Below are positions 1-33,104 of a stretch of DNA of 64,000 bases, piece after piece. The stretch covers positions 496,001 through 560,000 of the forward strand of contig NZ_JARXUZ010000001.1 in NCBI RefSeq assembly GCF_029893365.1, read 5' to 3'. The first letter of the stretch is position 1; the number at the start of each line of letters is the position of its first letter. A program made the translations under genes and the position numbers. The notes beneath the pieces are model-generated. The model had not been told where the DNA came from. It saw nothing but the letters and a program-made list of their open reading frames with translations, and made no database searches. This stretch comes from Cryobacterium sp. CG_9.6. GTDB lineage: Bacteria > Actinomycetota > Actinomycetes > Actinomycetales > Microbacteriaceae.

Positions 1-450
<450 letters not shown>

Positions 451-478
451 CCCCACCGTTTCACCAGTCATTCCCTGC

Positions 479-514
479 GGACGGCTGTTCCTGATACGTC
501 AGGAACAGCCGTCC
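479..514 (+). terminator. Terminator after nrdF
   Basis: A perfect 16-bp stem (479-494 with 499-514) closes on the four-base loop TACG and is followed by GTTTGT. It lies 29 bases after the nrdF stop codon and ends the nrd transcript before the choline operon. The T-run is short, which is common in high-GC actinobacteria. Confidence 0.85.
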
Positions 515-620
515 GTTTGTGGCAGGAAGAGCCCGCGCGGCGGCGGAAAAAGGGGTTTGGTAAGCTGAACGTTCCTGACCCCCGTTGCCATTGCCGGGGG
601 AGGACGCGTCGCTCCAATCA

Positions 621-2741
621 TTGAGGTTCCAGATTTCTCTGTCAGCACCCGTTTCTACCGAGGGTGACGAAGCCCCCTCCCGCGTCAATAAGACCGTCTT
701 CATCGGCTCCGCAAGCGGCATCATCGCCATCGCCCTCTGGGCCATCCTCGCCCCCGACAACGCCAGTGCCGTCATCGGCGCCGTTGTCGGTTGGGTGTCC
801 ACCAACCTCGGTTGGTACTACTTTCTGATTGTCACCCTTGTGCTGGCCTTCGTGATCTACATCGCACTCTCGCGAGTGGGGAAGACCCGGCTCGGCCCCG
901 ATCACTCGCGGCCACAGTTCAGCCTGTTCACCTGGACCGCCATGCTGTTCGCGGCCGGAATCGGCATCGACCTGATGTTCTTCTCGGTCTCTGAGCCGGT
1001 CACCCAGTACCTGGCGCCCCCCGCCGGCGACGGCAGCACCGTTGAAGCCGCCCGGCAGGCCATGGTCTGGACGCTCTTCCACTACGGCATCACCGGCTGG
1101 GCGCTCTACGCTCTGATGGGCCTGGCCCTCGGGTACTTTGCGTACCGGCAGAACCTGCCGCTCAGCATCCGCTCGGCCCTCTATCCCATCTTTGGTAAGC
1201 GCATCTATGGCCCCATTGGTGACGTTGTGGACATCGCCGCCATTCTGGGCACCATCTTCGGTATTGCGACGAGTCTCGGCATTGGTGTGGCGCAGCTGAA
1301 CTACGGCCTGACGTTCATGTTCGGCACCCCACAGACCATGTTCGTGCAGGGTTCGCTCATTGCCCTGTCGGTAGTGATGGCCACCGTGTCGGCCGTGACC
1401 GGTGTGGAAAAAGGCATCCGTCGTCTCTCCGAACTCAACGTGCTGCTCTCGGTTGCGCTCATGCTGTTCGTGCTCGTGGTGGGCAACACCTCGTTCCTGC
1501 TCGATTCGATCGTGCAAAACGTGGGCGACACCCTCAGCCGCTTCCCGGCAATGACCCTCAACACCTTTGCCTACGACCGGCCCGACGCCTGGATGAACGC
1601 GTGGACGCTGTTCTTCTGGGCGTGGTGGATTGCCTGGGCACCGTTTGTGGGCCTGTTCCTGGCCCGCATTTCGCGCGGCCGCACGATCCGCGAATTCGTG
1701 GCCGGCGTGCTCGTGGTGCCGTTCGCGTTCATTCTGCTCTGGATCGCCATCTTCGGAAACAGCGCCCTGGCCATCGTCATCGGCGGTGATGCCGGCTTCG
1801 GCGAGATTGCCATGAACTCTCCCGAGCGCGCCTTCTACTCCCTGCTGGACCAATTCCCGCTGGCACCCGTGACGGCAGCCGTGGCCACGTTCACCGGCCT
1901 GCTGTTCTACGTGACCTCCGCCGACTCGGGTGCGCTCGTGATGGCAAACTTCACTTCACACCTGAAAAACTCCGAGTCGGATGGCCCGAAATGGCTCCGG
2001 ATCTTCTGGGCGCTCGCCACCGGCATCCTGACCTTCGCCATGCTGCTGGTGGGAGGGATTCCCGTGCTGCAGAACGCCACCATCATTATGGGGCTGCCCT
2101 TCTCGGCGGTGCTGCTGCTGATTATGCTCGGGCTCTACAAGGCGCTGAGGGTGGAGCAGTCGCTCACCGACAGCTACCGCGCCAGTTTGCCCGGCCTACT
2201 CTCCGGTCGAAGCGCCGACCCCAGCCGGGCACGCAACTGGCGCCAGCGCCTCACCCGGGCCATGAGCTACCCCGGTCGACGCCAGACCGAGCGTTTCGTC
2301 TCCACCGTGGCGCTCCCGGCGCTGCAGGAGGTGCACGCGGAGCTTCTCGCGCAGGGTGCCGATGTCACCCTGACCGAAGGCATTGTGGAAGGTCTGCAGA
2401 TTCCGCACCTGGACCTCCTCGTGACCATGGGCGATGAACGTGGTTTCAAGTACCAGATCTACCCGGTTCAACTGGATATTCCCACCTATGCTGTGCGCAG
2501 TGCGTCGGAGCAGGGCAAGTATTACCGCATGGAGGTGTTCTCTTTGGAGGGCAGTCACGGGTATGACCTGATGGGATACGGCAAGGAGCAGGTCATCACC
2601 GACGTGCTCGACCACTACGAAACGCACCTCGACTTCTTGCACCTCAACCGCACCGAACCGGGCAACACTGCCCTCCCCGACGACCAGATGGCCAAGGACA
2701 ACTGGGAAGCCGATTATGACTCCGAAGACGTGAAGAAATGA
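621..2741 (+). CDS. betT: BCCT family choline/betaine transporter (BetT-like)
   Basis: This is a secondary transporter of the betaine/choline/carnitine family in the cytoplasmic membrane. The motif GIGIDLMFFSVSEP (about residue 110) and the Trp-rich segment WAWWIAWAPFVG (about residue 333), followed by ARISRGRTIREFV, are BCCT hallmarks; the first matches the BetT choline branch. The protein has about twelve hydrophobic segments and a hydrophilic C-terminal domain of nearly 200 residues, which BetT proteins use for osmotic sensing. The start is uncertain: the frame is open from TTG 585, and TTG 621 was chosen because GGGGGAGGA lies upstream, though spaced long at about 17 bases. The stop overlaps the next start (ATGA), so it is translationally coupled to the aldehyde dehydrogenase. 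Choline as substrate is inferred from the operon. Confidence 0.9.
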   Translation: MRFQISLSAPVSTEGDEAPSRVNKTVFIGSASGIIAIALWAILAPDNASAVIGAVVGWVSTNLGWYYFLIVTLVLAFVIYIALSRVGKTRLGPDHSRPQFSLFTWTAMLFAAGIGIDLMFFSVSEPVTQYLAPPAGDGSTVEAARQAMVWTLFHYGITGWALYALMGLALGYFAYRQNLPLSIRSALYPIFGKRIYGPIGDVVDIAAILGTIFGIATSLGIGVAQLNYGLTFMFGTPQTMFVQGSLIALSVVMATVSAVTGVEKGIRRLSELNVLLSVALMLFVLVVGNTSFLLDSIVQNVGDTLSRFPAMTLNTFAYDRPDAWMNAWTLFFWAWWIAWAPFVGLFLARISRGRTIREFVAGVLVVPFAFILLWIAIFGNSALAIVIGGDAGFGEIAMNSPERAFYSLLDQFPLAPVTAAVATFTGLLFYVTSADSGALVMANFTSHLKNSESDGPKWLRIFWALATGILTFAMLLVGGIPVLQNATIIMGLPFSAVLLLIMLGLYKALRVEQSLTDSYRASLPGLLSGRSADPSRARNWRQRLTRAMSYPGRRQTERFVSTVALPALQEVHAELLAQGADVTLTEGIVEGLQIPHLDLLVTMGDERGFKYQIYPVQLDIPTYAVRSASEQGKYYRMEVFSLEGSHGYDLMGYGKEQVITDVLDHYETHLDFLHLNRTEPGNTALPDDQMAKDNWEADYDSEDVKK

Positions 2742-4219
2742 GCACCATGACCTCGACCCTGTTCATCAACGGCAAGTGGGTGCCGGCCGCCGACGGCGGA
2801 ACCCGACTCATCAGCTGCCCGGCCGACGGCGAAGCGGTGGGCACCGTGTCCGAAGCCACCACAGCGGATGTCGAGGCCGCCATCGCCGCAGCCCGCACGT
2901 CGTTTGACAGTGGCGTGTGGTCCTCCGTTCCGGCCCCCGAGCGCGGTGACTTTCTGCTGCGTGTAGCCGCCGAGCTGCGCGTGCGCAAGACCGAGTTCGC
3001 CCGAGCGGAAACGCTCGACACCGGCAAGCGCCTGGTCGAGAGCGACATCGACATGGACGATATTGCCAACTGCTTCACCTACTTCGGCAAGCTGGCCGGG
3101 CAGGATGCCGGCCGCATCGTGGATGCCGGCGATGAGTCCGTCGTCAGCCGCATCGTGGTTGAGCCCGTTGGTGTCTGCGGTCTGATCGCCCCGTGGAACT
3201 ACCCGCTGCTGCAGGCGGCGTGGAAGATTGCGCCGGCCCTCGCCGCGGGTAACTCGTTCATTTTGAAGCCCAGTGAGCTCACCCCGCACACCTCGATTCT
3301 GATGATGGTGCTGCTGGATGACCTGGGCCTGCCCGCCGGAGTGGCCAACCTCGTGCTCGGAGCCGGGGCAGTGGCCGGCGCGCCGCTCTCGAGCCACCCC
3401 GACGTGGACCTGGTGTCGTTCACGGGGGGTCTCGAAACGGGCAAGAAGATTGCTGCTGCCGCGGCCGGAACCGTGAAGAAGGTGGCCCTCGAGCTCGGTG
3501 GCAAGAACCCGAACGTGATCTTTGCCGACGCGGACTTCGATGCCGCTGTCGACAACGCCCTCAACGGTGCTTTTGTGCACTCCGGGCAGGTGTGTTCCGC
3601 CGGTGCGCGGCTCGTTGTGGAGGCATCCATTGCGGAACGCTTCGTGGACGAACTCGTGCGCCGTGCCAATCAGATTCGGTTGGGCGGCCCGTTCGACCCG
3701 GAGGCCGAGACCGGACCGCTGATCTCGGCCGCGCACCGCGACAAGGTGACCGCCTACGTGCAGAAGGGCCTCGACGAGGGCGCCCGCCTGCGCTGCGGCG
3801 GAACCTGGGGCACCGGCGAGCTCGAGAAGGGCTTCTACTACACCCCCACAATCCTGGACCAGGTGCAGCGCGGCATGAGCGTGGTGATCGACGAGGCTTT
3901 CGGACCCGTCGTTACCGTGGAGACGTTCGAGACCGAAGACGAAGCCGTGCTCATCGGCAACGACACCGTGTACGGCCTGGCCGGTGCGGTCTGGACGCAG
4001 GATGCCGGCCGTGCGCAGCGCATTGCTAAGCGCCTGCGCCACGGCACCGTGTGGATCAACGACTTTCACCCCTACCTGCCGCAGGCGGAATGGGGCGGCT
4101 ACGGCCAGTCCGGTGTGGGCCGGGAGCTCGGCCCCAGCGGACTCGCCGAATATCAGGAAACAAAGCACATTTACCAGAACACCGCGCCCGCGGTGACCGG
4201 CTGGTTCGCGGCGCGTTGA
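2738..4219 (+). CDS. betB: Betaine-aldehyde dehydrogenase-like ALDH
   Basis: This is a 493-residue NAD(P)-dependent aldehyde dehydrogenase of normal family length. The general-base Glu lies in ELGGKNPN (about residue 251) and the catalytic Cys in GQVCSAGAR (about residue 285). PWNYPLLQ and the FTGG nucleotide-binding turn are also present. Its ATG overlaps the betT stop codon and choline oxidase follows after 23 bases, which points to betaine aldehyde as the substrate. In that case it converts betaine aldehyde to glycine betaine, a compatible solute. Because choline oxidase can do this step itself, the enzyme may scavenge released aldehyde or act on other amino-aldehydes. Family assignment is firm; substrate is inferred from context. 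Confidence 0.9.
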   Translation: MSTMTSTLFINGKWVPAADGGTRLISCPADGEAVGTVSEATTADVEAAIAAARTSFDSGVWSSVPAPERGDFLLRVAAELRVRKTEFARAETLDTGKRLVESDIDMDDIANCFTYFGKLAGQDAGRIVDAGDESVVSRIVVEPVGVCGLIAPWNYPLLQAAWKIAPALAAGNSFILKPSELTPHTSILMMVLLDDLGLPAGVANLVLGAGAVAGAPLSSHPDVDLVSFTGGLETGKKIAAAAAGTVKKVALELGGKNPNVIFADADFDAAVDNALNGAFVHSGQVCSAGARLVVEASIAERFVDELVRRANQIRLGGPFDPEAETGPLISAAHRDKVTAYVQKGLDEGARLRCGGTWGTGELEKGFYYTPTILDQVQRGMSVVIDEAFGPVVTVETFETEDEAVLIGNDTVYGLAGAVWTQDAGRAQRIAKRLRHGTVWINDFHPYLPQAEWGGYGQSGVGRELGPSGLAEYQETKHIYQNTAPAVTGWFAAR

Positions 4220-4242
4220 GCGTCGACGAAGGAGTAACACGC

Positions 4243-5811
4243 ATGACAACATCCATTAAGACTGACTTTGACTACGTTGTGATCGGCGGTGGCTCCGCGG
4301 GAGCCGCCGTCGCCGCCCGACTCAGCGAGGACCCCACCGTTGAGGTGGCGCTCGTGGAGGCGGGCCCCGACGACGCCGGCCTCGACGCGATTCTGCGGCT
4401 CGACCGCTGGATGGAACTGCTGGAGTCCGGCTACGACTGGGACTACCCGATCGAACCGCAGGAACACGGCAACTCCTTCATGCGCCACGCACGCGCCAAG
4501 GTGATGGGCGGATGCTCCAGCCACAACTCCTGCATCGCCTTCTGGGCTCCGGCCGAAGACATGGACGACTGGGCCGGTAAGCACGGCGCCACCGGTTGGG
4601 AGGCAGCGAACACCTTCCCGCTGTTCAAAAAGCTTGAGAACAACTCCGACCCGGCTCCGCACCACGGCCACGATGGCCCCGTTCACCTCATGGACGTGCC
4701 CCCGAACGATCCCTGTGGCGTGGCCCTATTGGATGCCTGCGAGCAGACGGGCATTCCCCGCACCACCTTCAACTCGGGAACAACCGTCATCAACGGTGCA
4801 AACTTCTTCCAGATCAACCGGCAGGCCGACGGCACGCGGGCGTCATCGTCGGTGTCGTACATCCACCCCATCCGGGAGCGCGCGAACTTCACCCTGCTTA
4901 CCGACATGCGTGCCCGCAAGATCACCTTCGATGACGCCAAGCGGTGCACGGGTGCCCAGGTCGTGGACGCGGCGGGTCACACCCACGCGCTGACCGTGCG
5001 CGAAGAGGTTATTCTTTCGGCCGGAGCCATCGATTCGCCGAAGCTGCTCATGCTCTCGGGCGTTGGCCCCGCCGAGCAGCTGCTCGAGCACGGCATCGAG
5101 GTGCTGGCGGATTCCCCCGGCGTGGGAGAGAACTTTCAGGACCACCCGGAAGGTGTAATTCAGTGGGAGGCTAAGCAGCCCATGCCCACGACATCCACTC
5201 AGTGGTGGGAACTCGGTATCTTCACGACCACCGAGGAGGGCCTTGACCGCCCCGACCTCATGTTCCACTACGGTTCGGTGCCCTTCGACATGCACACGGC
5301 TCGCCAGGGCTACCCCACGACGGAGAACGGCTTCTGCCTCACCCCCAACGTGACCCATGCCCGCTCGCGGGGAACGGTGAAGCTGCGCAGCATGGACTAC
5401 CGCGACAAGCCGCTCGTTGACCCCCGCTACTTCACCGACCCCTACGACATGCGCGTGATGGTGGCCGGAATCCGCAAGGCTCGGGAGATCGTGGCCCAGC
5501 CGGCAATGGCCGAGTGGGCGGGTGTGGAGCTGTACCCGGGATCCGCCGTGCAGACGGATGCCGAGATCACGGCGTACATCGAGAAGACCCACAACACCGT
5601 GTACCACCCGGCCGGCACCGTGCGTATGGGTGCAGTGGACGACATCGGCTCACCGCTCGACCCCGAGCTGCGCGTAAAGGGCGTCACCGGTCTGCGCGTG
5701 GCCGACGCCTCCGTGATGCCCGAGCTGGTGACCGTGAACCCGAACATCACCACCATGATGATCGGTGAGCGCTGCGCCCTGCTCGTGAAGTCAGCGCGCG
5801 TCGCCGCGTAG
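4243..5811 (+). CDS. codA: Choline oxidase (GMC flavoprotein)
   Basis: This 522-residue GMC oxidoreductase closely resembles the choline oxidase I recall from Arthrobacter globiformis over nearly its whole length. It would oxidise choline to glycine betaine in two flavin-dependent steps, using O2 and releasing H2O2. The FAD-binding GGGSAG motif is at residues 13-18. GGCSSHNS (His about residue 94) corresponds to the His that binds FAD covalently in choline oxidase. The active-site His is in YHPAGT (about 455), and the NPN motif near the C-terminus holds the conserved Asn. ATG 4243 is preceded by AAGGAG. The C-terminus is shorter than the recalled A. globiformis protein, ending CALLVKSARVAA, and this end is duplicated 832 bp downstream (5771-5823 and 6603-6655). 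Confidence 0.9.
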   Translation: MTTSIKTDFDYVVIGGGSAGAAVAARLSEDPTVEVALVEAGPDDAGLDAILRLDRWMELLESGYDWDYPIEPQEHGNSFMRHARAKVMGGCSSHNSCIAFWAPAEDMDDWAGKHGATGWEAANTFPLFKKLENNSDPAPHHGHDGPVHLMDVPPNDPCGVALLDACEQTGIPRTTFNSGTTVINGANFFQINRQADGTRASSSVSYIHPIRERANFTLLTDMRARKITFDDAKRCTGAQVVDAAGHTHALTVREEVILSAGAIDSPKLLMLSGVGPAEQLLEHGIEVLADSPGVGENFQDHPEGVIQWEAKQPMPTTSTQWWELGIFTTTEEGLDRPDLMFHYGSVPFDMHTARQGYPTTENGFCLTPNVTHARSRGTVKLRSMDYRDKPLVDPRYFTDPYDMRVMVAGIRKAREIVAQPAMAEWAGVELYPGSAVQTDAEITAYIEKTHNTVYHPAGTVRMGAVDDIGSPLDPELRVKGVTGLRVADASVMPELVTVNPNITTMMIGERCALLVKSARVAA

Positions 5812-5823
5812 CGTGCGGGGGCG
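5771..5823. repeat. 53-bp direct repeat, left copy (codA 3' end)
   Basis: These 53 bases, which include the last codons and stop of codA, recur at 6603-6655 in the same orientation with only three mismatches (50 of 53 identical). Between the copies lie the small basic ORF and the DUF1801 gene. The right copy contains the 3' end of the convergent MBL gene, so each repeat covers one of two gene ends that could once have overlapped tail to tail. Confidence 0.9.
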
Positions 5824-5871
5824 CACACCACGGGATACGCATCCCGAAAACAATTGATTGGAGCGTGCACC

Positions 5872-6054
5872 ATGGCCCAAAACCCTAAGCAAAGCAACAA
5901 GGTTGCCCGAGCGGCACGCTCAGGCATGAGTAACGCTCGGTTCAGCGCAGCCGCCGAAACCACCGCCACGAGCGCCCGGGCCCAACGACGCAAGAAACCC
6001 GCCACGTCGATTCTGGCCCCGAGGCGAAGCCCAGACTCCGCCCCTCAGGGGTGA
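5872..6054 (+). CDS. Small basic hypothetical protein (60 aa)
   Basis: This ORF of 60 residues starts at an ATG preceded by TTGGAG at good spacing. The product is rich in Ala, Ser, Arg and Lys, with the basic cluster QRRKKP, and has no membrane segment or recognisable domain. It lies inside the segment bounded by 53-bp direct repeats, 60 bases after codA and converging on the DUF1801 gene. I do not recognise a family. Support is limited to the ribosome binding site and the open frame, so it may not be a real gene. Confidence 0.35.
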   Translation: MAQNPKQSNKVARAARSGMSNARFSAAAETTATSARAQRRKKPATSILAPRRSPDSAPQG

Positions 6055-6076
6055 GGACCGCCGATGATTGGGGAAC

Positions 6077-6514
6077 CTACCCGGTTGTCGGCGCGGGTTC
6101 GGGGTCATCGCCCCGAGACGCAGCGATTGCAATGAGTCGGCGCAGCACGTGGAGATCGATGTCGTCGAGCTTCCTCACGTAGACGCAGCCCATTCCCTCG
6201 GTGTACTTGCCGAGAGCCGGAAGCAGGGCCGCACCCTCGGGGAGGTCTTTGAGCCCATAGATCGACAGTTGCGCCTTGCGCGGCGAGAATCCTGCCTTCG
6301 GCCAATCCCCGCGCGTGCGGGGGTTCGCCGGAGACACGTAACGGAAGCTTCCGTACCCCACCATGGATGGACCCCACATGACCGGCACTGCGCCGGTCAC
6401 CTCGCGGAAGATCGCATCGAGGGCCTTACCGTCGTCGCGACGTTGGGCCGGCATCGCCGCGTCGAGAAAATCCTCGACGGACGCATCCGTCGGCTGCGTT
6501 TTGTTCTCGGCCAT
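6077..6514 (-). CDS. DUF1801 domain protein
   Basis: The product has 145 residues when started at ATG 6514 (MAENKTQ); the frame is open further upstream, but those residues do not resemble the family. It matches DUF1801 in its VEDFLDAAMPAQRRDDGKAL opening, the central VPVMWGPSMVGYGSFRY segment and the YGLKDLPEGAALLPALGKY region. DUF1801 proteins are small, soluble and poorly understood; some Bacillus relatives are called iron chaperone-like. The gene lies in the cassette bounded by 53-bp direct repeats, with no operon partner, so context gives no function. Family call is good; role unknown. Confidence 0.8.
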   Translation of the reverse strand: MAENKTQPTDASVEDFLDAAMPAQRRDDGKALDAIFREVTGAVPVMWGPSMVGYGSFRYVSPANPRTRGDWPKAGFSPRKAQLSIYGLKDLPEGAALLPALGKYTEGMGCVYVRKLDDIDLHVLRRLIAIAASRGDDPEPAPTTG

Positions 6515-6602
6515 GACCCCAGTATGGCCCGGGTCGACCCGACGCGACCAGACTGCCTCCGGGGTGACAGCCCGATAAGCGATCGAGGTGCGCAATCGTG
6601 CG

Positions 6603-6655
6603 GCTGCGCCCTGCTCGTGAAGTCAGCTCGCGTCGCTGCGTAGCGCGCGGGGGCG
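6603..6655. repeat. 53-bp direct repeat, right copy (MBL gene 3' end)
   Basis: This is the second copy of the 53-bp sequence found at the end of codA, with three mismatches. It still encodes the codA C-terminal peptide CALLVKSARVAA and a TAG stop on the plus strand, while on the minus strand it encodes the last residues and stop of the MBL-fold gene. Confidence 0.9.
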
Positions 6656-7438
6656 TTCGCGGAGGTAGGTGAGTTGCGTGCGAACGGATGCCTCGGCGGC
6701 GAACCGCACGGACGCATCCGCCTGGGCGTACACCGCGTCGGTGACCTGCGCCACCGTGGCGTCGTTACCGAGTATGGCCAGCGCCGCACGCACCTGATCG
6801 AGCCGCTCGTGGCGGTGCGCGGCGTACTGGTCGCAGATTGCGGCTAGATCGGGCAGGACCGGGCCGTGGGCCGGCAGTACGGTGGCCGGCCCACAGGCAC
6901 GCAGAATCTGCAGTGACTGCAGGTAATCGGCCAGGGTGCCGTCGGGGTGGCCAAGAACGGTGGTGCCACGGCCGAGGATGGTGTCGCCGGTGAGCATCGA
7001 ACCGTGCGCGCCGTCGTCGGGGAGATGGAAGCACACCGAGTCGGCGGTGTGTCCGGGCGTGGCAATCACCCGGATGCGGGTGCCGGCGACCCGAATTTCT
7101 TCGCCGCCCCGGAGCGGGTTGCCGCCCACGCAAAACGCCGGGTCGAAGGCGCGCACCGGCGCGCCCGTGAGCTCAGCAAAGCGAACACTGGCGGCGGTGT
7201 GATCGGCATGCTGGTGGGTGATGAGAACAAGGTCGATGCGGCCGGCTGCGGCGAGGGACGCCAGGTGGCCCTCGTGGACGGGCCCGGGATCCACCACGAC
7301 ATGACCGCTCGAACCTGGAGCCGCGATCACATAGGAGTTGGTGCCGTCGAGTGTCATCGGCCCCGCGTTCGGGGCCAGAATGCGTCGGGTGAGGATGCTC
7401 GTGCGCTCGCCGAGGGTGGCCGGCACGGAATCGCTCAT
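6623..7438 (-). CDS. MBL-fold metallo-hydrolase
   Basis: This is a 271-residue soluble enzyme of the metallo-beta-lactamase fold. The metal-binding motif HQHADH is at residues 75-80, with a further ligand in TPGHTADS and an Asp in LTGDTILG. A C-terminal helical region (about residues 200-271) resembles that of LACTB2/RNase-like and glyoxalase II-like members. ATG 7438 was chosen because the DSVPATLGERTSI start fits the family and the frame upstream overlaps the divergent Nudix gene. Substrate cannot be told from sequence; hydrolysis of a thioester, phosphodiester or nucleic acid are all possible. Its 3' end lies in the right copy of the 53-bp repeat. The divergent Nudix gene is often its neighbour in actinobacteria, as I recall. 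Confidence 0.85.
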   Translation of the reverse strand: MSDSVPATLGERTSILTRRILAPNAGPMTLDGTNSYVIAAPGSSGHVVVDPGPVHEGHLASLAAAGRIDLVLITHQHADHTAASVRFAELTGAPVRAFDPAFCVGGNPLRGGEEIRVAGTRIRVIATPGHTADSVCFHLPDDGAHGSMLTGDTILGRGTTVLGHPDGTLADYLQSLQILRACGPATVLPAHGPVLPDLAAICDQYAAHRHERLDQVRAALAILGNDATVAQVTDAVYAQADASVRFAAEASVRTQLTYLRERPRALRSDAS

Positions 7439-7541
7439 GACTGGCAGCCTACTGCCGCCAGCTGGGCCGGCGTTAGGGTGGAGGCGACGGGTCATCACCA
7501 CAGAGATATCGCCAGCTGCCGCACAGAATGGGAACACCGCA

Positions 7542-8240
7542 ATGAAGCGAGACGAGATCAGCGCAGAGCCGGCACTTCCGATGGCGGCCACGGTGGTGCT
7601 GCTGCGGGACGGCGCCGCGGGGTTGGAAGTGTTGCTGCTGGAGCGTCCCCACCATCGCGGATCGTTTGCCGGGGCGTGGGTTTTCCCCGGTGGCGCTGTC
7701 GACCCGGAGGATTTCGCGCCGGATCAGCCGGCCGCCGAGCAGCCGGCCGCCGAGCGTGCGGCGCGGCGTGAAGTGCTCGAAGAGACGAGCCTTCGCCTGG
7801 TGCCGGGGTCTCTCGTGGTGACGGCATGCTGGATTCCACCAGCGTCCACGCCCAAACGCCTGCGCACCTGGTTCTACTGGTCGAAGGCACCCGCGGGCAC
7901 GATCACCCTCCCCTCGGAGGAAGCGGTGGATCACGTGTGGCTTCGGCCCCAGGCGGCCCTTGACCGGCACGCGAGCGGCACCATGCGCCTCTTCCCGCCC
8001 ACCTGGGTGACACTCAACGCCCTCACCCCGCACTCTTCCGTTGACGCGGCACTGCACGCGGCGGGCGCGGGAGAGGTGGCACTCTTCGAGTCACGGTTCG
8101 GACCGAGTCCGCACGAAGCCGTTCTGTTCTGGCAGCACGACGTGGCCTTCGCTGACAGTGCGCTGTTCGAAGCGGATGGCCCCCGTCACCGCCTCGAGAC
8201 GGGCGCGCTTCCCTGGGTCTACACGCGCGCGCTGGTCTAG
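7542..8240 (+). CDS. Nudix hydrolase (NUDT19-like)
   Basis: The product has 232 residues from ATG 7542. It opens with a typical Nudix strand (AATVVLLRDG) and has WVFPGGAVDP followed by AARREVLEETSL (about residues 73-84), which is the REVxEE core of the Nudix box. About 20 residues rich in Pro and Ala (PAAEQPAAE) lie between the box Gly and the REV motif; such an extended loop is seen in the NUDT19/CoA-type subfamily. The enzyme would cleave a nucleoside diphosphate linked to another group, perhaps CoA or ADP-ribose derivatives. It is divergent from the MBL gene and convergent with the secreted protein gene, leaving one base between stops. Confidence 0.85.
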   Translation: MKRDEISAEPALPMAATVVLLRDGAAGLEVLLLERPHHRGSFAGAWVFPGGAVDPEDFAPDQPAAEQPAAERAARREVLEETSLRLVPGSLVVTACWIPPASTPKRLRTWFYWSKAPAGTITLPSEEAVDHVWLRPQAALDRHASGTMRLFPPTWVTLNALTPHSSVDAALHAAGAGEVALFESRFGPSPHEAVLFWQHDVAFADSALFEADGPRHRLETGALPWVYTRALV

Positions 8241-8241
8241 G

Positions 8242-9117
8242 TCAGGGCAGCAGCGTGGGGGTGGCGCAGCTCTGTCCGCCCGCATAGTTGAGGCAGTCGT
8301 CGAAGAATGCCGGGTAGCGCGTGGTGGTGGGATCGCCGAACCACTGGTCGTAGAACGCCCAAAAGTTGAGGTTGCCGTAGGTGGAGCAGGCGTCGCCGGT
8401 GTCACCCTGGTTGGCTATGGCGACATCGTTGGGCTGGTACGGCGTGTAGTTGTAGAGGTTTGCCGTGGCCTGATTGCGAATGTCCACGGTGGACGCCCCG
8501 CATTCCGCGTTGGGGTTGAAGCCCACGTCCACGGCTCCCTGCTGGTAGGCCCGATCGGGTTCCTGCGTGTACTGCCGAAACTGCCAGGCCGCGTTGTAGA
8601 CCTGATTGAAAAATCCGAAATACTCGGTATTGCACTCGGCCGTGTCGGGGCACGCGTAACCGGTGGCCCGGAGGTAGCCCCGCTCCGTCGGCCGGGTGAG
8701 CAGGGACTGCTCCTTTTGCAGGAGCACGAGCAGTACCCGCGGGGAGATGGTGCAGGCCTCGGCGACCCTGGTGATGATGCGACTGGCCGGCTCCTCGGCG
8801 GCACCCGCATAGGCGGCGCAGTGCCCGTCCTGCTGCGCAGCCTGGTCTGTCGTGGTTTCGCGGTACTCCCACGCGCACGGCGACGCGTCGCTGCGCACGC
8901 AGGAGCGCTCCTCGAGAAAAGTCTGAACGTCGGCCTCGGACATGGCATCGGGGTTGAAGAAGTTGTAGTCGCTCACGATCAACCCCGGGTCAAAGGGGGC
9001 CGGTTCGCCGTCGGCCTGCGCCGCCGACGCGCCGACGGCCACGATCCCGGTGAGCACGAGGGACAGGATCGCCGTCAACGCCAGCATTCGGTGGCGTGCT
9101 CCAGCGAAAGATCTCAT
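8242..9117 (-). CDS. Secreted actinobacterial protein, hemagglutinin-like family
   Basis: This 291-residue exported protein has a signal peptide (residues 1-35; hydrophobic core LALTAILSLVLTGIVAV, probable cleavage after ASA). The mature part matches a family that I know from actinobacterial cell-wall proteins often labelled hemagglutinin. Its signatures are the SDYNFFN start, RIITRVAEACTISPRVLLVL with QKEQSLL, TGYACPDTAECNTEYFGFFNQ and ATANLYNYTPYQPN, then a closing NFWAFYDQWFG. Eight or more Cys residues suggest disulfides. In other genomes the domain occurs with cell-wall-binding repeats; here it stands alone. A wall-remodelling or lytic role is plausible from the Glu-rich QKEQSLL helix but unproven. 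Confidence 0.8.
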   Translation of the reverse strand: MRSFAGARHRMLALTAILSLVLTGIVAVGASAAQADGEPAPFDPGLIVSDYNFFNPDAMSEADVQTFLEERSCVRSDASPCAWEYRETTTDQAAQQDGHCAAYAGAAEEPASRIITRVAEACTISPRVLLVLLQKEQSLLTRPTERGYLRATGYACPDTAECNTEYFGFFNQVYNAAWQFRQYTQEPDRAYQQGAVDVGFNPNAECGASTVDIRNQATANLYNYTPYQPNDVAIANQGDTGDACSTYGNLNFWAFYDQWFGDPTTTRYPAFFDDCLNYAGGQSCATPTLLP

Positions 9118-9172
9118 GGCAAAACCCTAGCCGCCTCCCGTTGGGCCTCGCTGTGAGTGAGGCGGCCAGGTT

Positions 9173-10024
9173 TTAGGGGGTGCGGGCGGCGTTCACCACA
9201 ACGGTGGGGGACTGAATGTTGAGCACGAGCGAGTGGCTGACGGATCCCAGCAGGAAACGCTTGATCCCGTGCACGCCGTGATTACCCACCACGAGGAGGC
9301 TGGCACCGCGTGCCGCGTCGAGAAGCGCCCACTGCGGAGCGCCACGGGTGAGGGAGGATCGCACGCGCACATCCGGAGAGATCGACCGGGCCAACGCCAC
9401 TGACTCATCAAGAACGCTGCGGTGAATGTCCTCGAGCGATTGCAGAAACTCAATGTCAGGAACGGCGGTCTCGGGCCACATCAACGGTTCCTGCCACGCA
9501 TGGATGAGATGAAGCTCCTCACCGGTGCGATCGGCTTCCAGGACAGCAAAGCGGATGGCGGCGTTGGCCGCCGCTGACCCGTCGACGCCCACGACAATCC
9601 CGTCGCCGGGCGGCCCGTCGTTCTCGGGGATGATGGCCACCGGGCCGTTTGCTGCTCCCGCGAGGCGGGCGCCGACCGACCACTCGTAGCGAACGGTGGG
9701 GCCGTCGCGGCGGTGAGTGCCCACGACCACGAGCGCATCTTCGGTGGAGAGGCGCTTGAGCTCCTCGATCGGATCTCCCGGCACCACCTCACTGCGCACG
9801 GTGACCGAGGGATGTTCCTCCTGCACGCGATCGGCGTCACTCTGCAGAACAATCGGGGCGGTTTGCGCCACAGACTCCGGCATGAAGTAATCGGCGGATT
9901 CGCTCGTGCGGTCCACCACCCGCACCATCATGAGTTCGCCGCCCGAGGAACGTTCGAGTGCCCATTTCAGGGCTGCCCGCGACGGCGGCCGACCGTCCCA
10001 CGCCACAATCGCCTTCTCAATCAT
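9173..10024 (-). CDS. Universal stress protein, two UspA domains
   Basis: This 283-residue protein consists of two UspA domains (about 1-138 and 145-283). Each has the opening strand ending in D or W-D and a nucleotide-binding loop; the second ends with the canonical VVGNHGVHGIKRFLLGSVSH pattern (GxxG-9x-GS), while the first domain is more diverged. ATP binding by the second domain is therefore likely. GAAAGG before the ATG gives a fair ribosome binding site. It is divergent from another two-domain Usp gene across 242 bases holding a DosR-box-like site, and an orphan DevR-like regulator follows. Such proteins support survival in hypoxia or stationary phase in mycobacteria. Confidence 0.92.
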   Translation of the reverse strand: MIEKAIVAWDGRPPSRAALKWALERSSGGELMMVRVVDRTSESADYFMPESVAQTAPIVLQSDADRVQEEHPSVTVRSEVVPGDPIEELKRLSTEDALVVVGTHRRDGPTVRYEWSVGARLAGAANGPVAIIPENDGPPGDGIVVGVDGSAAANAAIRFAVLEADRTGEELHLIHAWQEPLMWPETAVPDIEFLQSLEDIHRSVLDESVALARSISPDVRVRSSLTRGAPQWALLDAARGASLLVVGNHGVHGIKRFLLGSVSHSLVLNIQSPTVVVNAARTP

Positions 10025-10140
10025 GTTTCGTACCTTTCGCCACCGAGCCCGAACATGGTGCGTAATTGCTCACTACGTTAGCTTGCGAACGCCACCTTAA
10101 GTGCGTGAGTTTCGCCGGGCTGAGAGCTGTTCTCCAGACG

Positions 10141-10158
10141 AGGGGGACTTCTGCCCCT
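10141..10158. promoter_or_regulatory. DosR/DevR box-like site
   Basis: AGGGGGACTTCTGCCCCT lies between the two divergent usp genes. It has AGGGG/CCCCT arms and the GGGACTT core typical of DosR (DevR) boxes as recalled from mycobacteria. A DevR-like regulator is encoded within 1.8 kb. The assignment is by pattern only. Confidence 0.5.
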
Positions 10159-10266
10159 AGCCGTACCTGCCCGGATGCGGGATAGTGAGCGTGAGCAGCG
10201 ACTCGGCTGCCCCAACCGGGAGGCCGTCCATGACGACACTCCCCTCGAAAAAGACGAGGTAGACCT

Positions 10267-11124
10267 GTGAACCGCAAGATCGTCGTCGGTGTGGATGATT
10301 TAGAGCCCAGCGAAGCCGCGCTCGGATGGGCGCTTCGCCGGGCAGAAGCGCTCGACTGCCCGGTGAGCATCGTGCATACCGTGCAGGCAGCCTGGTTGGC
10401 CGAAGGGTACGGCTACTACAACACGATCATCAATGAGGAGGAGGCCCTCGTTCGCCAGATTGGCTCCCGAGCGGTTGAACTGGCCCCCACGGTGTCGTCC
10501 ACGGCGACCCTCCGCACCGGCACGGCTCCCCGGGTGCTGAGCGAGCTGTCGGTGGACGCGAGCCTCGTGGTGGTGGGCACCGACCGTAAAACCGGTTTTG
10601 ACGGCGACTTCTTCGGCAGCGCGAGCCTGCAGATTGCGGCCCTGAGCGCCTGTCCCGTTGCTGTCATTCCCAACCATCCCTTCGGTGACCGAACGGGTGT
10701 TGTCGTGGGAGTGGACGGCTCGGAGGATTCCCTCACGGCGGTGCAATTCGCGGCCGCGGAAGCCGACCGCACCGGCCAGGACCTCACTGCTGTCTATGCC
10801 GCACGCATTCCCACGCAGCGGGTGCTGCGACACATTCCGGAGAGCAGTATTGCCGAGAGATTAGACGAGGAGCGGGTGGTACTCGCCGAGTGCGTGGCTG
10901 GACTCACCACCCAGTACCCGGACCTCACCGTGCATCAGGTTCTCGTCACCGAAGACACTCCGGCCCGGGCGCTGCTGTCGGCGGCCGCAAACGCGCAGCT
11001 CCTCGTGGTGGGAAACCACGGGCGTGGTGCCGTGAGCCGGCTCTGGATGGGCTCCGTCAGTCACGAGGTACTCGGTCAGACCCCCTGCCCCACGGTGATC
11101 ACGCGCACGAAGCACCACCGCTAA
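10267..11124 (+). CDS. Universal stress protein, two UspA domains
   Basis: The product has 285 residues and two UspA domains (about 1-140 and 147-285). Domain one starts KIVVGVDDLEPSEAALGWAL and domain two GVVVGVDGSEDSLTAVQFAA. Domain two ends with VVGNHGRGAVSRLWMGSVSH, the ATP-binding GxxG-9x-G(S/N) pattern. The start is GTG 10267, with GACGAGGT upstream. A DosR-box-like palindrome lies about 110 bases before the start and the adjacent convergent gene encodes a DevR-like regulator, so hypoxia or redox control is likely. A shared hairpin separates the two convergent genes. Confidence 0.92.
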   Translation: MNRKIVVGVDDLEPSEAALGWALRRAEALDCPVSIVHTVQAAWLAEGYGYYNTIINEEEALVRQIGSRAVELAPTVSSTATLRTGTAPRVLSELSVDASLVVVGTDRKTGFDGDFFGSASLQIAALSACPVAVIPNHPFGDRTGVVVGVDGSEDSLTAVQFAAAEADRTGQDLTAVYAARIPTQRVLRHIPESSIAERLDEERVVLAECVAGLTTQYPDLTVHQVLVTEDTPARALLSAAANAQLLVVGNHGRGAVSRLWMGSVSHEVLGQTPCPTVITRTKHHR

Positions 11125-11130
11125 GGCTGG

Positions 11131-11178
11131 TTAGGGGAGCGGATGCGTCGACCACTGGCCGAGGCATCCGCTGCCTAA
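11131..11178. terminator. Bidirectional hairpin between usp and devR-like gene
   Basis: TTAGGGGAGCGGATGC (11131-11146) pairs with GCATCCGCTGCCTAA (11164-11178) apart from a small internal mismatch. It lies between convergent genes and overlaps the stop codon of the regulator. There is no clear T-run. Both arms contain the octamer GCGGATGC/GCATCCGC that is common in this window. Confidence 0.6.
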
Positions 11179-11879
11179 CGCTCGGCCTCGTGCTTCGTGA
11201 CGTACACGGCCGCCTGCGTGCGGCGCTGAAAATCGAGCTTGGCGAGCAGGGAGGAGACGTAGTTTTTCACCGTCTTCTCGGCCAGAAACATGGCACTGGC
11301 GATCTCGCGGTTGGTGAGGCCGTCGCCGATGAGGTCGAGTACCCGCCGCTCCTGCGGGGTGAGTGACGCCAGACGCGCGTCTTGGGGGTTGGCCAGGCCC
11401 TCAATGACGCGGGCGCGAATGGCGGGGTCGAACAGGTTTTGGCCCGCCGCAGCCCGCCGGATGGAATCGAGCAGGTCGTCGCTGCGGATCTCTTTGAGAA
11501 CATAGCCCGCGGCGCCGGCCAGGATAGCGCCGCGCAGGGCGTGTTCGTCGTCGTAGCTCGTGAGGATGATGCACTGCAGGGTGGGGTCGATCGAACGCAC
11601 GTCCCGGCACACTTCGATGCCGGTCCCATCGGGCAGCCGGGCGTCCAAAACGCACACGTCCGGGTGCAGCGCGGGGATGCGCTCGGTGGCGTCCTCGGCC
11701 AGGCCCGTGTCGCCCACGATGTCGAAACCCTCGTCCTCGAGCAGCTCGCGCAGACCTCGGCGCACGAGTTCGTGGTCATCGAGGATGAAGACACGGGTGG
11801 CAGCGAGGGGCGAGCGTGGTGACGGCGAAACGTGGGGCCGAGGGTCGGCATCCGCTACGATCTCCGGGCTGGTGCCCAT
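11175..11879 (-). CDS. NarL/LuxR-family response regulator, DevR/DosR-like
   Basis: This 234-residue response regulator has a receiver domain (about 27-145; VFILDDHE acidic pair, phospho-acceptor Asp in CVLDARLPDG, Lys in VLKEIRSDD). A LuxR-type helix-turn-helix follows (about 165-225). The output segment LTPQERRVLDLIGDGLTNRE, then MFLAEKTVKNYVSSLLAKL and RRTQAAV, closely follows mycobacterial DosR/DevR as I recall it. ATG 11879 is preceded by AAAGGAGC; a frame extension upstream lacks family likeness. No histidine kinase gene lies beside it, so the partner (DevS/DosT-like) must be elsewhere. Neighbouring usp genes and DosR-box-like sites (10141-10158, 11956-11974) suggest a dormancy or redox regulon with autoregulation. 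Confidence 0.9.
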   Translation of the reverse strand: MGTSPEIVADADPRPHVSPSPRSPLAATRVFILDDHELVRRGLRELLEDEGFDIVGDTGLAEDATERIPALHPDVCVLDARLPDGTGIEVCRDVRSIDPTLQCIILTSYDDEHALRGAILAGAAGYVLKEIRSDDLLDSIRRAAAGQNLFDPAIRARVIEGLANPQDARLASLTPQERRVLDLIGDGLTNREIASAMFLAEKTVKNYVSSLLAKLDFQRRTQAAVYVTKHEAER

Positions 11880-11955
11880 GGTGCTCCTTTCGCTGGCGCG
11901 GCACGGGCCGGGCGAGCGTCTCTGCACCAGTGTGTCGCGCCTCGGCTCCCGCGGC

Positions 11956-11974
11956 TAGGGCCAAAGGGCCGTAG
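11956..11974. promoter_or_regulatory. Second DosR-box-like palindrome upstream of devR-like gene
   Basis: TAGGGCCAAAGGGCCGTAG lies about 80 bases upstream of the devR-like start. Read on the minus strand it gives GGCCCTTTGGCCCT, similar to DosR half-site patterns. It would fit autoregulation. It is also close to the end of csoR, so a role in termination cannot be excluded. Confidence 0.4.
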
Positions 11975-11987
11975 CGGATGATGCGGT

Positions 11988-12338
11988 TTAGGAGCGCACG
12001 AGCCGCGCGATCGCTGCCGACGCCTCTTTAATCTTGGCGTCTGCCTCCGGGCCGCCCGCGGCGGCAGCATCGCGCACGCAGTGATTGAGGTGGTCGTCGA
12101 GAAGGCCGAGGGCCACCGATTGCAGGGCACTGGTCATGGCCGAGACCTGCGTGAGAATGTCGATGCAGTACTTGTCGTCGGTGACCATTCCCTGCAGGCC
12201 ACGCGCCTGCCCTTCGATGCGACGCAGCCGCTTCAGGTAATTGTCTTTATTGGAAATGTACCCGTGCGGTCCCTCGTGTCCGGCGCCGTGGTGCTCGGGG
12301 TGATGCTCATCTGCTGAGACCGTAACCGGCTCGGTCAT
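11988..12338 (-). CDS. csoR: CsoR-family copper-sensing repressor
   Basis: This 116-residue DUF156/CsoR-type all-helical repressor has the complete copper ligand set. These are the Cys in KYCIDILTQ and the His and Cys in HLNHCV, with His four residues before Cys as in CsoR. The N-terminal extension is His-rich (HHPEHHGAGH). KDNYLKRLRRIEGQARGLQ is the conserved first helix. It is divergent from copZ-copA, with a CsoR-type operator (TACCCCCTAGGGGTA, 12396-12410) in the intergenic region. Copper binding would release the repressor and switch on copper efflux. It is also convergent in sense with no partner, so it is likely transcribed from its own promoter. Confidence 0.92.
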   Translation of the reverse strand: MTEPVTVSADEHHPEHHGAGHEGPHGYISNKDNYLKRLRRIEGQARGLQGMVTDDKYCIDILTQVSAMTSALQSVALGLLDDHLNHCVRDAAAAGGPEADAKIKEASAAIARLVRS

Positions 12339-12463: not shown

Positions 12464-12691
12464 ATGAGTATTGAGAATACATACCAGGTCACCGGAATGA
12501 CGTGTGGGCACTGCGTGGCCAGCGTAAAAGAAGAGATCGGCCTCATTGCGGGCATCGAAAGCGTGAACGTTGAGCTGGTGAAGGGTGGGTCCTCCACCGT
12601 CACCGTCACGAGTGTCGCGGCGCAAGATCCCGCGGCCGTGGCGGCCGCCATCGACGAGGCAGGCTACCAGCTCGCCCCCATCGGCTCATGA
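12464..12691 (+). CDS. copZ: CopZ-like copper chaperone
   Basis: This 75-residue protein is a single heavy-metal-associated domain with the metal site [10 protein letters not shown] (residues 10-19) and the ferredoxin-like pattern of the family. It would carry Cu(I) in the cytoplasm to CopA. ATG 12464 is preceded by CAGGGGA. Its TGA overlaps the copA ATG (ATGA), giving translational coupling. A CsoR-type operator sits upstream, and csoR is divergent. Assignment is firm from the motif, length and neighbours. Confidence 0.92.
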
Positions 12692-14925
12692 CGACGTCGC
12701 AGGTCGACCTCCTCGTGGGAGGCATGACCTGCACCTCGTGTGCGGCGCGCATTGAAAAGAAACTCAACCGCATGCCCGGGGTTGAGGCCACGGTCAACTA
12801 CGCCACAGAAAAGGCCACCGTCTTCGTGCCGGACGGCACCTCGGTGGCCGACGCCATCGCCACCATCGAGGCCACGGGGTACACGGCCACGGTGCCGGTA
12901 CCGGTTGGCGACGCCCCTGAAGCGAATGCCGGCGACGAGTCCGACGAGGTCAGCCAGCTCCGTCAACGCCTGCTCATCTCCACGGCCCTCACCGTTCCGG
13001 TGGCGCTGTTGTCGATGATTCCGGTGCTGCAGTTCGACAACTGGCAGTGGCTGGCCCTCACCCTGGCGGCTCCCGTGGCCGTGTGGGGTGCCTGGCCGTT
13101 CCACCGGGCGGCATGGATCAATGCGCGGCACGGTGCCGCCACCATGGACACGCTGGTGAGCGTCGGCGTGCTCGCCGCGCTCGGCTGGTCGCTCTATGCC
13201 CTCTTCTTCGGCACGGCCGGCATGGTGGGCATGACCATGGGATTCAGTTTCACGGCGTCACCGGAGGGCGGTGCGGGCGAGATCTACCTGGAGGTGGCAT
13301 CCGCTGTCACCGTGTTTATTCTGGCGGGTCGCTATGCCGAAGCGCGCGCAAAGCGGCGCTCCGGTGCGGCACTGCTCGCGCTGCTGGAACTGGGCGCCAA
13401 AGAGACCACCCTGCTGCGAGATGGCGTGGAGTCGCGCGTTGCGACCAGCACGCTCGTGGTGGGCGACCAGTTTGTGGTGCGTCCGGGGGAGAAGATTGCC
13501 ACCGACGGCGAGGTGGTCTCGGGTACCTCGGCCGTTGACTCGAGCATGCTCACCGGAGAATCCGTGCCGGTTGAGGTGGGCCCCGGCGCTGCCGTGGTGG
13601 GCGCCACCCTGAATGCCGGCGGCCGGCTTGTCGTTCAGGCCACACGGGTGGGAGCCGATACGGAGCTGGCCCACATTGGACGTCTCGTGGAGCAGGCCCA
13701 GACCGGTAAGGCCGATGTGCAGCGGCTGGCGGACCGCGTGTCCGCCGTGTTTGTGCCCATCGTCATTCTGCTCGCACTCGGCACCCTGGCGGTGTGGCTG
13801 CTCGTGGGCGGCGGGCCGGAACTCGCGTTCACGGCCGCCGTGGCAACGCTGATTATTGCGTGCCCCTGCGCCCTCGGGCTCGCCACTCCCACCGCGCTTC
13901 TGGTGGGAACCGGGCGTGGTGCTCAGCTGGGCATTCTGATCAAGGGACCTCAGGTGCTGGAGTCCACCCGCCGCGTGGACACGATCGTGCTCGACAAGAC
14001 GGGAACGGTCACGACCGGAACGATGACCCTGGCCACCGTCATGGCCATTAGTTGCAGCAGCGAACACGAGTTGCTGGGGTACGCGGGCGCCGCGGAAAGT
14101 GGCTCGGAGCATCCGATTGCCGCCGCGATTGTGCGGGGTGCCCAAGAACGTCGGGGCGATGTGCCGGCTGCGGAATCGTTTGGTTCGGAGCAGGGCCTCG
14201 GCGTTCACGCCGTTGTCGACGGGCACGCGGTTCTGGTGGGGCGCCCGCAGTGGCTCGCCGAGTCGTGGAGCATTGCACTGCCGGTGGAACTTAGCGCTGT
14301 ACTCGGGGTGGCCGAGGCCAACGGCGAGACCGCCGTCGTGGTGGCGTGGGACGGTAAGGCACGGGGTGTTCTCGGCGTCTCCGATCAGGTGAAGCCCACG
14401 AGTGCGGCCGCGATTGCCCACTTCAAGGAACTGGGCCTACGTCCCATCCTGCTCACCGGTGACAACGAGGTCGTGGCGCGCGCCGTCGCGGCGACGGTGG
14501 GCATCGACGAGGTGACCGCCGGAGTGCTGCCCGCGGGCAAGGCCGAGATCATTCGCCAGCTGCAGGCCGAGGGCGCCGTGGTGGCCATGGTGGGAGACGG
14601 CGTGAATGACGCCGTGGCCCTCGCCACCGCCGACCTGGGTATCGCCATGGGCACGGGAACCGACGTGGCCATCGAGGCGAGCGATCTCACGCTGGTGCGC
14701 AGTGACCTGCTCGCGGCAGCGGATGCCATCCGCCTCGCCCGCCGCACACTGGGCACGATCAAGGCCAACCTGTTCTGGGCCTTCGCCTACAACGTGGCTG
14801 CGATCCCGCTCGCGATGCTGGGGTTGCTGAACCCGCTCATCGCCGGGGCCGCCATGGCGTTCTCGTCGGTGTTCGTCGTGACGAACAGCCTGCGACTGCG
14901 CCGGTTCCGCGCGCTCGCCGCGTAG
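12688..14925 (+). CDS. copA: Copper-exporting P1B-type ATPase
   Basis: This 745-residue membrane ATPase exports Cu(I). It has one N-terminal metal-binding domain (GMTCTSC, residues 11-17) and eight predicted membrane helices. The TGES-type actuator motif ([10 protein letters not shown]), the CPC transmembrane site ([14 protein letters not shown]), the phosphorylated DKTGT, the SEHP motif and GDGVND follow in order. The stretch after GDGVND is AVAL where many CopA proteins have APAL, a variant I recall as tolerated in actinobacteria. It is coupled to copZ and controlled by a CsoR-type operator. A 23-bp perfect hairpin follows the stop and separates it from the convergent CPH-type ATPase. Confidence 0.95.
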
Positions 14926-17134: not shown

Positions 17135-17146
17135 TCCTTCAGCGTA

Positions 17147-17161
17147 TACCCCCAAGGGGTA
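17147..17161. promoter_or_regulatory. CsoR/CstR-type operator before the copB-like gene
   Basis: TACCCCCAAGGGGTA is a near-perfect palindrome 12 bases upstream of the copB-like start. It differs from the copZ-copA operator only in the centre (AA in place of TA). Binding here would repress the CPH-type ATPase. Confidence 0.75.
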
Positions 17162-17254
17162 CTCTGACTCGGAACCGGTCCATGGCGAACCACTGCCAGT
17201 GACCGCTTGTGCCGTGTGCCGGTGGGTTGCCGCCATTCCTGGTTGGTGCTTGGA

Positions 17255-26597: not shown

Positions 26598-26630
26598 CCC
26601 GGTCGCTGCCGGCGCTGCGCGCGATGGCGG

Positions 26631-26688
26631 CGCCCGAAACGGGTGGCCGCTACGCCGGTTACGCTAGCCGCCCCCGATTTCGGGGGCG
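26631..26688 (+). repeat. 58-bp palindromic repeat, family 2, in a 186-bp tandem repeat
   Basis: CGCCCGAAAC...GATTTCGGGGGCG forms an imperfect hairpin around the core GCTACGCCGGTTACG. It recurs 186 bp downstream (26817-26874). The following 60 bases (CCGGCGAG, GGCCACCCGTTTGCGTCGCG) also recur, so a unit of about 150-186 bp is duplicated in tandem. The 397-base gap 26598-26994 holds only these repeats; I see no credible gene in it. Confidence 0.85.
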
Positions 26689-26816
26689 CCGGCGAGCCGT
26701 TTGCGTGGCGGCCACCCGTTTGCGTCGCGGGCGAGGCGGATGGTGCGGCGGTGGGCGGTGCGATAGCGGATGCGTGGTGCGTTCGTGCGCTGCGCGGCAT
26801 CCGTTCGCGATGGCCG

Positions 26817-26874
26817 CGCCCGAAATCGGTGGCCGCTACGCCGGTTACGGCAGCCGCCCCCGATTTCGGGGGCG
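26817..26874 (+). repeat. 58-bp palindromic repeat, family 2, second tandem copy
   Basis: This is the second copy of the 58-bp palindrome in this gap, followed by the shared flank ending GCGTCGCGGGCGAGGCG. The ends CGCCCGAAATCG and CGATTTCGGGGGCG pair almost perfectly. It matches the inverted copy at 21467-21524 at 48 of 58 positions. Confidence 0.85.
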
Positions 26875-26994
26875 CCGGCGAGCGGTTTGCGTAGCGGCCA
26901 CCCGTTTGCGTCGCGGGCGAGGCGGGCGAGGCGGATGGCGCGTGGTCGGGCGGCGCTACGCGGGGTCGGGCGGCGCTACACGTGGCCGGGCGCG

Positions 26995-30181: not shown

Positions 30182-30389
30182 TCGGACCGTACCCCGGTGG
30201 ACGTGCGCCATGATCGACCGTTTGTTCGGCGGAGATCGCACGTTCAGCTTTGACGTCTACAATTCAGGTGTGGGTCAACGAGACTCATGCGTCATCTGCC
30301 AGGCCCCTACAGGGGTCGACAGCCCGGTGATTTTCTATCCCGAGGCAACCGGTTCAGTAGCCCCTTTCCTCGAGGGAATGAGGAAAACA

Positions 30390-32930: not shown

Positions 32931-32960
32931 GCCGGCGGGCGGGCGGCCGCACCGGCATCC

Positions 32961-33104
32961 GCTGGCGCACATCGCACCGTCCGGCGGCCCGGGAAGGTGC
33001 AAAGGCCGCCGGCCAACCTCGCGGCGGGTGCCGCTGGCGCACATCGCACCCTCCGGTGGCGCGGGACGGTGCGAACGCCGCCGGTCAACCTTCCGGCGGG
33101 CCGC
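32961..33104 (+). repeat. 72-bp repeat in tandem (family 1, copies B and C)
   Basis: Two 72-bp units (32961-33032 and 33033-33104) both start GCTGGCGCACATCGCACC and contain CGGGAMGGTGC and GCCGCCGG; about five in six positions agree. Within each unit GCACC and GGTGC arms can pair. The sequence GGCGCACATCGCACC recurs inverted at 46244-46292. It fills the gap between the MFS and PAP2 genes, where I see no gene. Confidence 0.8.

Follow-up and report, generated by a model that had tools for sequence, protein, structure and literature searches.

A direct repeat at two convergent gene ends in Cryobacterium and its probable origin in tandem duplication and complementary loss

Organisation of the locus

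The DNA analysed (hereafter the window) is a stretch of 64,000 nucleotides from Cryobacterium sp. CG_9.6, whose 3.54 Mb genome is designated G000. The order in the window is: nrdF, betT, BADH, codA, R, 60-aa ORF, DUF1801, R', MBL and a NUDIX-type gene, R and R' being the two copies of a direct repeat (Table 1). nrdF ends at position 450 and is followed by betT; the genes upstream of betT we take to be nrdE-nrdF. The 60-aa ORF family had no Pfam or NCBIfam match and its 12 distinct copies share the motif MAQNPKQSNKVAR.ASSG..N.RFSAAADTAAARARAL...KKPGK; the C-terminus of the G000 version extends past the stop position of the version in a relative, G049. No RNA family was found at gathering scores in window 1-12000. 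Elsewhere, the window contains a 129-nt direct repeat (26620-26934, 91%) and a 72-bp tandem repeat (32948-33091, 83%).

Table 1. Genes, repeats and junctions of the locus (window coordinates)
Feature	Position	Strand	Description
nrdF-betT junction	451..588		place held in G049 by the 60-aa ORF, DUF1801 and the USP gene
betT	585..2741	+	choline BCCT transporter; above NCBIfam cut-off
BADH	2738..4219	+	betaine-aldehyde dehydrogenase-type gene; best NCBIfam match, below cut-off
codA	4243..5811	+	name from the preliminary description; GMC oxidoreductase; choline dehydrogenase is the best NCBIfam match, below cut-offs
R, left repeat	5771..5823	+	codA end (stop 5809-5811) and 12 bp (5812-5823) corresponding to MBL end
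Presumed duplication junction	5816..5823		CGGGGGCG fits MBL tail and, roughly, native upstream sequence of the 60-aa ORF (CGCGGGCT in G049)
Relocated 779-bp segment	5824..6602		
60-aa ORF	5872..6054	+	conserved small basic protein family of the genus
DUF1801 gene	6077..6514	-	Pfam PF08818, 38.3 bits (cut-off 27.2)
DUF1801 upstream sequence	6532..6602		modest likeness to native G023 DUF1801 upstream sequence, ending with a GCTGC common to both at the R' border; presumed deletion junction
R', right repeat	6603..6655		MBL 3' end (from 6623, minus strand) and 20 bp (6603-6622) of putative former codA coding sequence
MBL	6623..7438	-	MBL-fold hydrolase gene

The direct repeat R/R'

The window repeat search returned R and R' as a 53-nt direct repeat with a spacing of 832. 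As a preliminary description of this DNA had claimed, the copies differ at three positions only (50/53 identical; mismatches at 5796/6628, 5805/6637 and 5814/6646), and the chance expectation for such a pair in 64 kb is 1.8e-15 under an independent-bases model. The same description had the left copy ending codA on the plus strand and the right copy ending MBL on the minus strand with a codA tail and its stop retained, and the stop positions bear this out: the codA stop lies inside R, the MBL stop is at 6623-6625 (minus strand), and R' still encodes the codA tail, CALLVKSARVAA, with a stop at 6641-6643. Read in the repeat's register, codA and MBL share 21 nt of coding sequence at their ends; R retains 12 bp beyond the codA stop and R' 20 bp beyond the MBL stop. 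The 779 bp that separate the copies contain the 60-aa ORF and the DUF1801 gene (hereafter the pair).

The first 25 bases of the repeat occur at these two sites only in G000, with up to 3 mismatches allowed (reversed-pattern control: 0). The search for further copies proposed in the preliminary description thus rules out a common dispersed repeat.

R and R' were compared with 16 other codA tails: R matched them at 28-41 positions and R' at 27-41, and the best pair among the 16 reached 43 matches, against 50/53 for R/R'. GTGAAGTCAGC and GCGGGGGCG were present in 0/16 of these tails. The copying therefore took place in this lineage or in a very closely related one. The divergence between R and R' is 3/53, or 5.7% (95% interval 1.2-15.7%), beside 13% between G000 and the relative G023 over window 4000-5805. 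Past the codA stop, R carries MBL-end-like sequence (as in G023), which suggests that codA already abutted MBL at the time of copying. We infer that R' is the remnant of a second codA copy.

The codA-MBL junction in relatives

The genus search comprised 57 genomes, one per species. G023 showed the highest identity to G000 of the relatives compared over the gene at 12688-14925 (82%); for the next gene (15008-17236) its best copy reached 73%, behind G026 and G033 at 79%. In G023, codA (stop 7013-7015) and MBL (end 7012) converge on a single copy of the repeat, with the stops overlapping in CTAG. The predicted relative without the cassette is thus present, and its stop overlap supports the earlier view that codA and MBL formerly overlapped tail to tail. 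In G046, of order nrdF-betT-BADH-codA-MBL, codA adjoins MBL with a gap of ~70 bp and nothing of the pair in between; no match to the pair was obtained in this genome.

The native site of the 60-aa ORF and DUF1801

In G049, nrdF is separated by 26 bp from the homologue of window 5816-6531, which contains the 60-aa ORF and DUF1801; USP, betT, BADH and codA come next in that order. The pair likewise follows nrdF in G023, and DUF1801 lies at most 170 bp from nrdF in G007, G009, G010, G024 and G028 as well. The distance from the pair to the codA end is ~6 kb in G049 and ~19 kb in G023, in the same orientation as in G000. In G000 the pair was found once, beyond codA, and nrdF is followed by betT: compared with G049 and G023, two adjacent blocks have swapped order with their orientation kept. 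Since the pair is native beside nrdF in G049 and G023 and was not found there in G000, the difference is a local change of gene order and not a gain. Of the earlier proposal of an inserted cassette, one part stands, namely that the segment came later and that both gene ends were duplicated; the gained element is ruled out.

The window stretch 5500-7000 had a single match in G000 (6 of 101 candidates scored), and the best other match to codA in G000 was 36%. Of the block, the 5500-7000 stretch and codA were thus found in one copy only, and the USP gene seems to have been lost from both copies in G000, its closest match being the gene at window 10267 with 75%. No recognisable trace of lost genes was found at the nrdF-betT junction (window 451-575) in six comparisons, the best of which, with the USP-betT junction of G049, was equalled by 612/2000 random segments.

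The opposite polarity, with the pair first between codA and MBL and R' later, was considered because the 60-aa ORF adjoins MBL in 12 genomes; it was ruled out by the MBL-like sequence after the codA stop in R and by codA lying directly on MBL in G023. Among 80 named DUF1801 loci (the best 80 of 182), nrdF was near in 7, all of them titled as Cryobacterium, so in this set other genera are of no help for polarity at the family level.

The interval between nrdF and MBL is a variable region, differing in content and order between relatives. Among 30 genomes with an MBL match, 22 carry nrdF on the same contig as MBL, at a distance of ~5 to 44 kb. Partial DUF1801 matches, as of a decaying gene, lie near MBL in G047, G019 and G015 (loci L043, L045 and L056).

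Gene-end remnants in other Cryobacterium genomes

A repeat scan of 13 regions and a gene-end scan, the latter over 36 loci in 34 of the 57 genomes, yielded two further strong cases of similar scars. At E<=1e-3 the gene-end scan gave 12 direct and 9 inverted secondary matches for 178 gene tails, 4 and 0 for 178 heads, and 13 and 10 for 681 inner windows; 2 of the 12 direct tail matches are the G000 pair of repeats seen from both genes. With such comparable counts in the controls, weak matches are mostly background, and the strongest alone were used (G000, G023 tail and head, G026). The four strongest matches of the scan (E<=2e-10), two of which are the G000 repeats, all lie at gene ends.

In the usual order, seen in 12 genomes (G006, G011, G014, G019, G027, G029, G033, G034, G035, G038, G047 and G053), the 60-aa ORF is directed towards the MBL end and its conserved start lies 81-135 bp from it. 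In G026 the order is DUF1801-MBL-60aa-MBL tail'-NUDIX, where tail' denotes an MBL 3'-end remnant that still adjoins the 60-aa ORF. In alignments with the MBL end of G026 and three further MBL ends, this remnant (E 2e-7 in the gene-end scan) scored 54-63, a level reached by 0 of 4,560-4,600 random segments, and it recurs as an 'inner' match of the 60-aa ORF; at E<=3e-7 the sole other inner match is that of G019. In alignments made without a random control, the MBL upstream sequence of G026 runs straight into the 60-aa ORF upstream sequence, as a duplication junction, and the sequence past the remnant resembles the MBL-NUDIX spacer of G033. A complete tandem duplication followed by complementary loss would account for this arrangement.

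In G023, nrdF-60aa-DUF1801-USP is followed by a betT-leader remnant (E 2e-10), ~78 bp and an nrdF-tail remnant (E 1e-13); the intact betT lies beyond a further ~10 kb with other genes. The ~78 bp between the remnants (L031:8120-8197) appear to resemble the C-terminus of an IS110-type transposase. This seam is as expected for a tandem copy extending from the nrdF tail to the betT leader, or for two joined haplotypes. G023 also carries a 126-bp direct repeat (83%) at 18579-18703 and 30239-30364 of a joined stretch of C1 starting at 2290000, upstream of betT and upstream of a USP gene, possibly a further scar.

An nrdF-tail remnant in G012 (75% over 59 bp, E 6e-5) was retained as a weak case. The remaining candidates were dropped: those of G019 and G015 because the same spot was also matched inverted, and those of G020 (a tandem repeat behind the gene), G024, G050, G012 g8242 and a second G026 match as weak or within another gene.

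Gene trees of the region

In the MBL tree, G000 and G023 are sisters (100/99). The codA tree (17 genes) unites the five genes from genomes with the choline operon near nrdF and/or MBL in one clade (100/99), within which G000 falls outside G023+G046+G049+G050 (95/97; AU p 0.064 for G000+G023). The AU p value for betT was 0.099, and the BADH tree joins G000 and G023 without support (68/53). In the DUF1801 tree (13 genes), G000, G023 and G049 group together (88/90), G000 being placed with G049 (99/96; AU p 0.047 against G000+G023), and the nrdF tree pairs G000 with G022 (90/86). Given these conflicts, part of the region may derive from another haplotype.

Proposed sequence of events

A duplicative origin of some kind is very probable for the repeats. 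Tandem duplication and loss, one of the two mechanisms named in the preliminary description, fits best, and we consider the repeats to be, with somewhat better than even probability, the footprint of a local gene-order swap through tandem duplication followed by complementary loss.

On this account, the ancestral order would have been nrdF - 60-aa ORF - DUF1801 - USP - betT - BADH - codA (as in G049 and, with inserts, in G023), codA converging on MBL (as in G023). A tandem duplication of ~7 kb would have begun shortly before the 60-aa ORF and ended within the MBL tail, shortly after the codA stop, probably at a short microhomology of GGGGC type. Copy 1 would have lost 60-aa ORF-DUF1801-USP and retained betT-BADH-codA, and copy 2 would have retained 60-aa ORF-DUF1801, the loss of USP-betT-BADH-codA stopping at a GCTGC microhomology with 53 bp remaining. 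The outcome would be nrdF-betT-BADH-codA-R-60aa-DUF1801-R'-MBL, with both convergent genes intact. Because the last codons of MBL lie within the 53-bp remnant, it would persist with little room to shrink.

The left junction, CGGGGGCG, is compatible with both presumed parent sequences. The right junction falls on GCTGC, a motif also present between DUF1801 and USP in both G023 and G049. The 60-70 bp before it show a modest likeness to G023 (47/20,000 random segments as good, or 10/479 under the stricter control of segments ending in GCTGC); the DUF1801 upstream sequence gave no match to G049 (2758/3000 random segments as good). The remnant sits at the original junction, R' adjoining MBL as codA adjoins MBL in G023. 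No duplicated intermediate was seen in the 57-genome search or in the relatives' loci examined; such an intermediate would be transient, so its absence does not exclude the process.

Alternative explanations

Microhomology-mediated template switching could also produce both junctions and the 53-bp repeat. A replication fork or repair process would have departed from the codA/MBL tail at GGGGC, taken 779 bp of template from the native site upstream and returned to the codA tail at GCTGC, 53 bp short of its exit point, the original pair being deleted later. One duplicative event and one deletion suffice here, whereas tandem duplication and complementary loss takes three events. By analogy with the other genomes, template switching would not readily account for G026 (one copy of a duplicated gene reduced to its 3' tail at the usual junction, with a duplication junction visible next to it) or for the paired nrdF-tail and betT-leader remnants of G023; we regard it as unlikely at the present locus. 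A little less probable again is the joining of two haplotypes brought together by transfer, one of G046 type (nrdF-betT-BADH-codA-MBL, without the pair) and one of G049/G023 type: one homologous and one illegitimate crossover would give an intermediate with two codA genes, later reduced by deletion. The existence of the G046 order and the conflicting gene trees speak for it. The 50/53 match of R and R', against at most 41 positions with any of the 16 other codA tails, would however require nearly conspecific partners, and the nrdF-betT junction of G000 shows no recognisable likeness to that of G046 except in the betT leader (986/2000 random segments as good). Transfer between close haplotypes may still have taken part in the swap, and it would build the same intermediate.

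Integrative elements flanked by attL and attR, and their decayed remnants, are bordered by direct repeats derived from a gene 3' end, with a single copy at the empty site. The locus resembles them in both respects, with its gene-3'-end repeats around a small segment and the single copy in G023, and an att-flanked or mobile element inserted with a 53-bp target duplication was therefore considered. Unlike in such elements, there is no integrase and the cargo is native, relocated from nearby and not found at its usual site in G000. Neither enclosed gene is a recombinase; of the two families searched in G000, the nearest phage integrase (PF00589) is ~609 kb away, with none within 600 kb, and the nearest rve-type transposase ~63 kb away. 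The check for a linked integrase proposed earlier was thus negative. The window repeat search found no inverted repeat of at least 16 bp with one arm at each border. No codA-tail sequence was found at the native site of the pair: in the G049 locus and the G023 pair locus, the sole direct repeat of at least 32 bp at 85% or more is of the nrdF tail. Moreover, both genes need the 21-bp core of the repeat as coding sequence. The att-like insertion offered earlier as the alternative mechanism thus has little in its favour, and we consider it highly improbable.

Relation to known systems and significance

Duplication-random loss is presented in the literature as the common model for mitochondrial gene order. 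The swap in G000 is like that of animal mitochondria in that adjacent blocks exchange places without inversion, each gene is kept once and remnants may be left between genes; it differs in its setting (a bacterial chromosome), its size (~7 kb), the holding of the remnant by overlap with a convergent gene end, and the intermediate, which was not seen. The SNAP hypothesis (Brandis and Hughes 2020, PMC7055797) derives new gene order from duplication followed by asymmetrical gene loss under selection; its authors stated in 2020 that direct evidence was lacking, no unique feature being left behind, and the duplications involved span tens of kb and more and arise by recombination between repeats. 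The present locus shares with SNAP the duplication and asymmetrical loss that yield a new order, but its ~7 kb duplication would probably rest on microhomology, and there is no sign of selection keeping the duplication or of essential-gene lock-in; the pair is unmatched in G046, which speaks against its genes being essential. Membership of SNAP proper is not claimed for this locus. PMC8046335 uses duplication-loss as one possible mechanism and calls the precise mechanisms not determinable, and PMC12190745 attributes most synteny loss to gene gain and loss. Among titles and abstract openings, in a coverage with subscription journals mostly outside it, no description of such a footprint in a bacterial chromosome was found.

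For the genus as a whole, we put it at an even chance that the gene order between nrdF and MBL in Cryobacterium has been shaped by repeated tandem duplication and complementary loss, leaving a legible and hitherto unused signature: the gene-end remnant of a lost copy, held in place where it overlaps or abuts a convergent gene. Completed swaps seem still to bear footprints at base level, in three species and one neighbourhood (a fourth case being weak), and footprints of this gene-end type are searchable in any genome. If the reading is true, a genome-wide search for gene-end scars would gauge what share of gene-order change in bacteria comes from duplication and loss as opposed to transposition or transfer.
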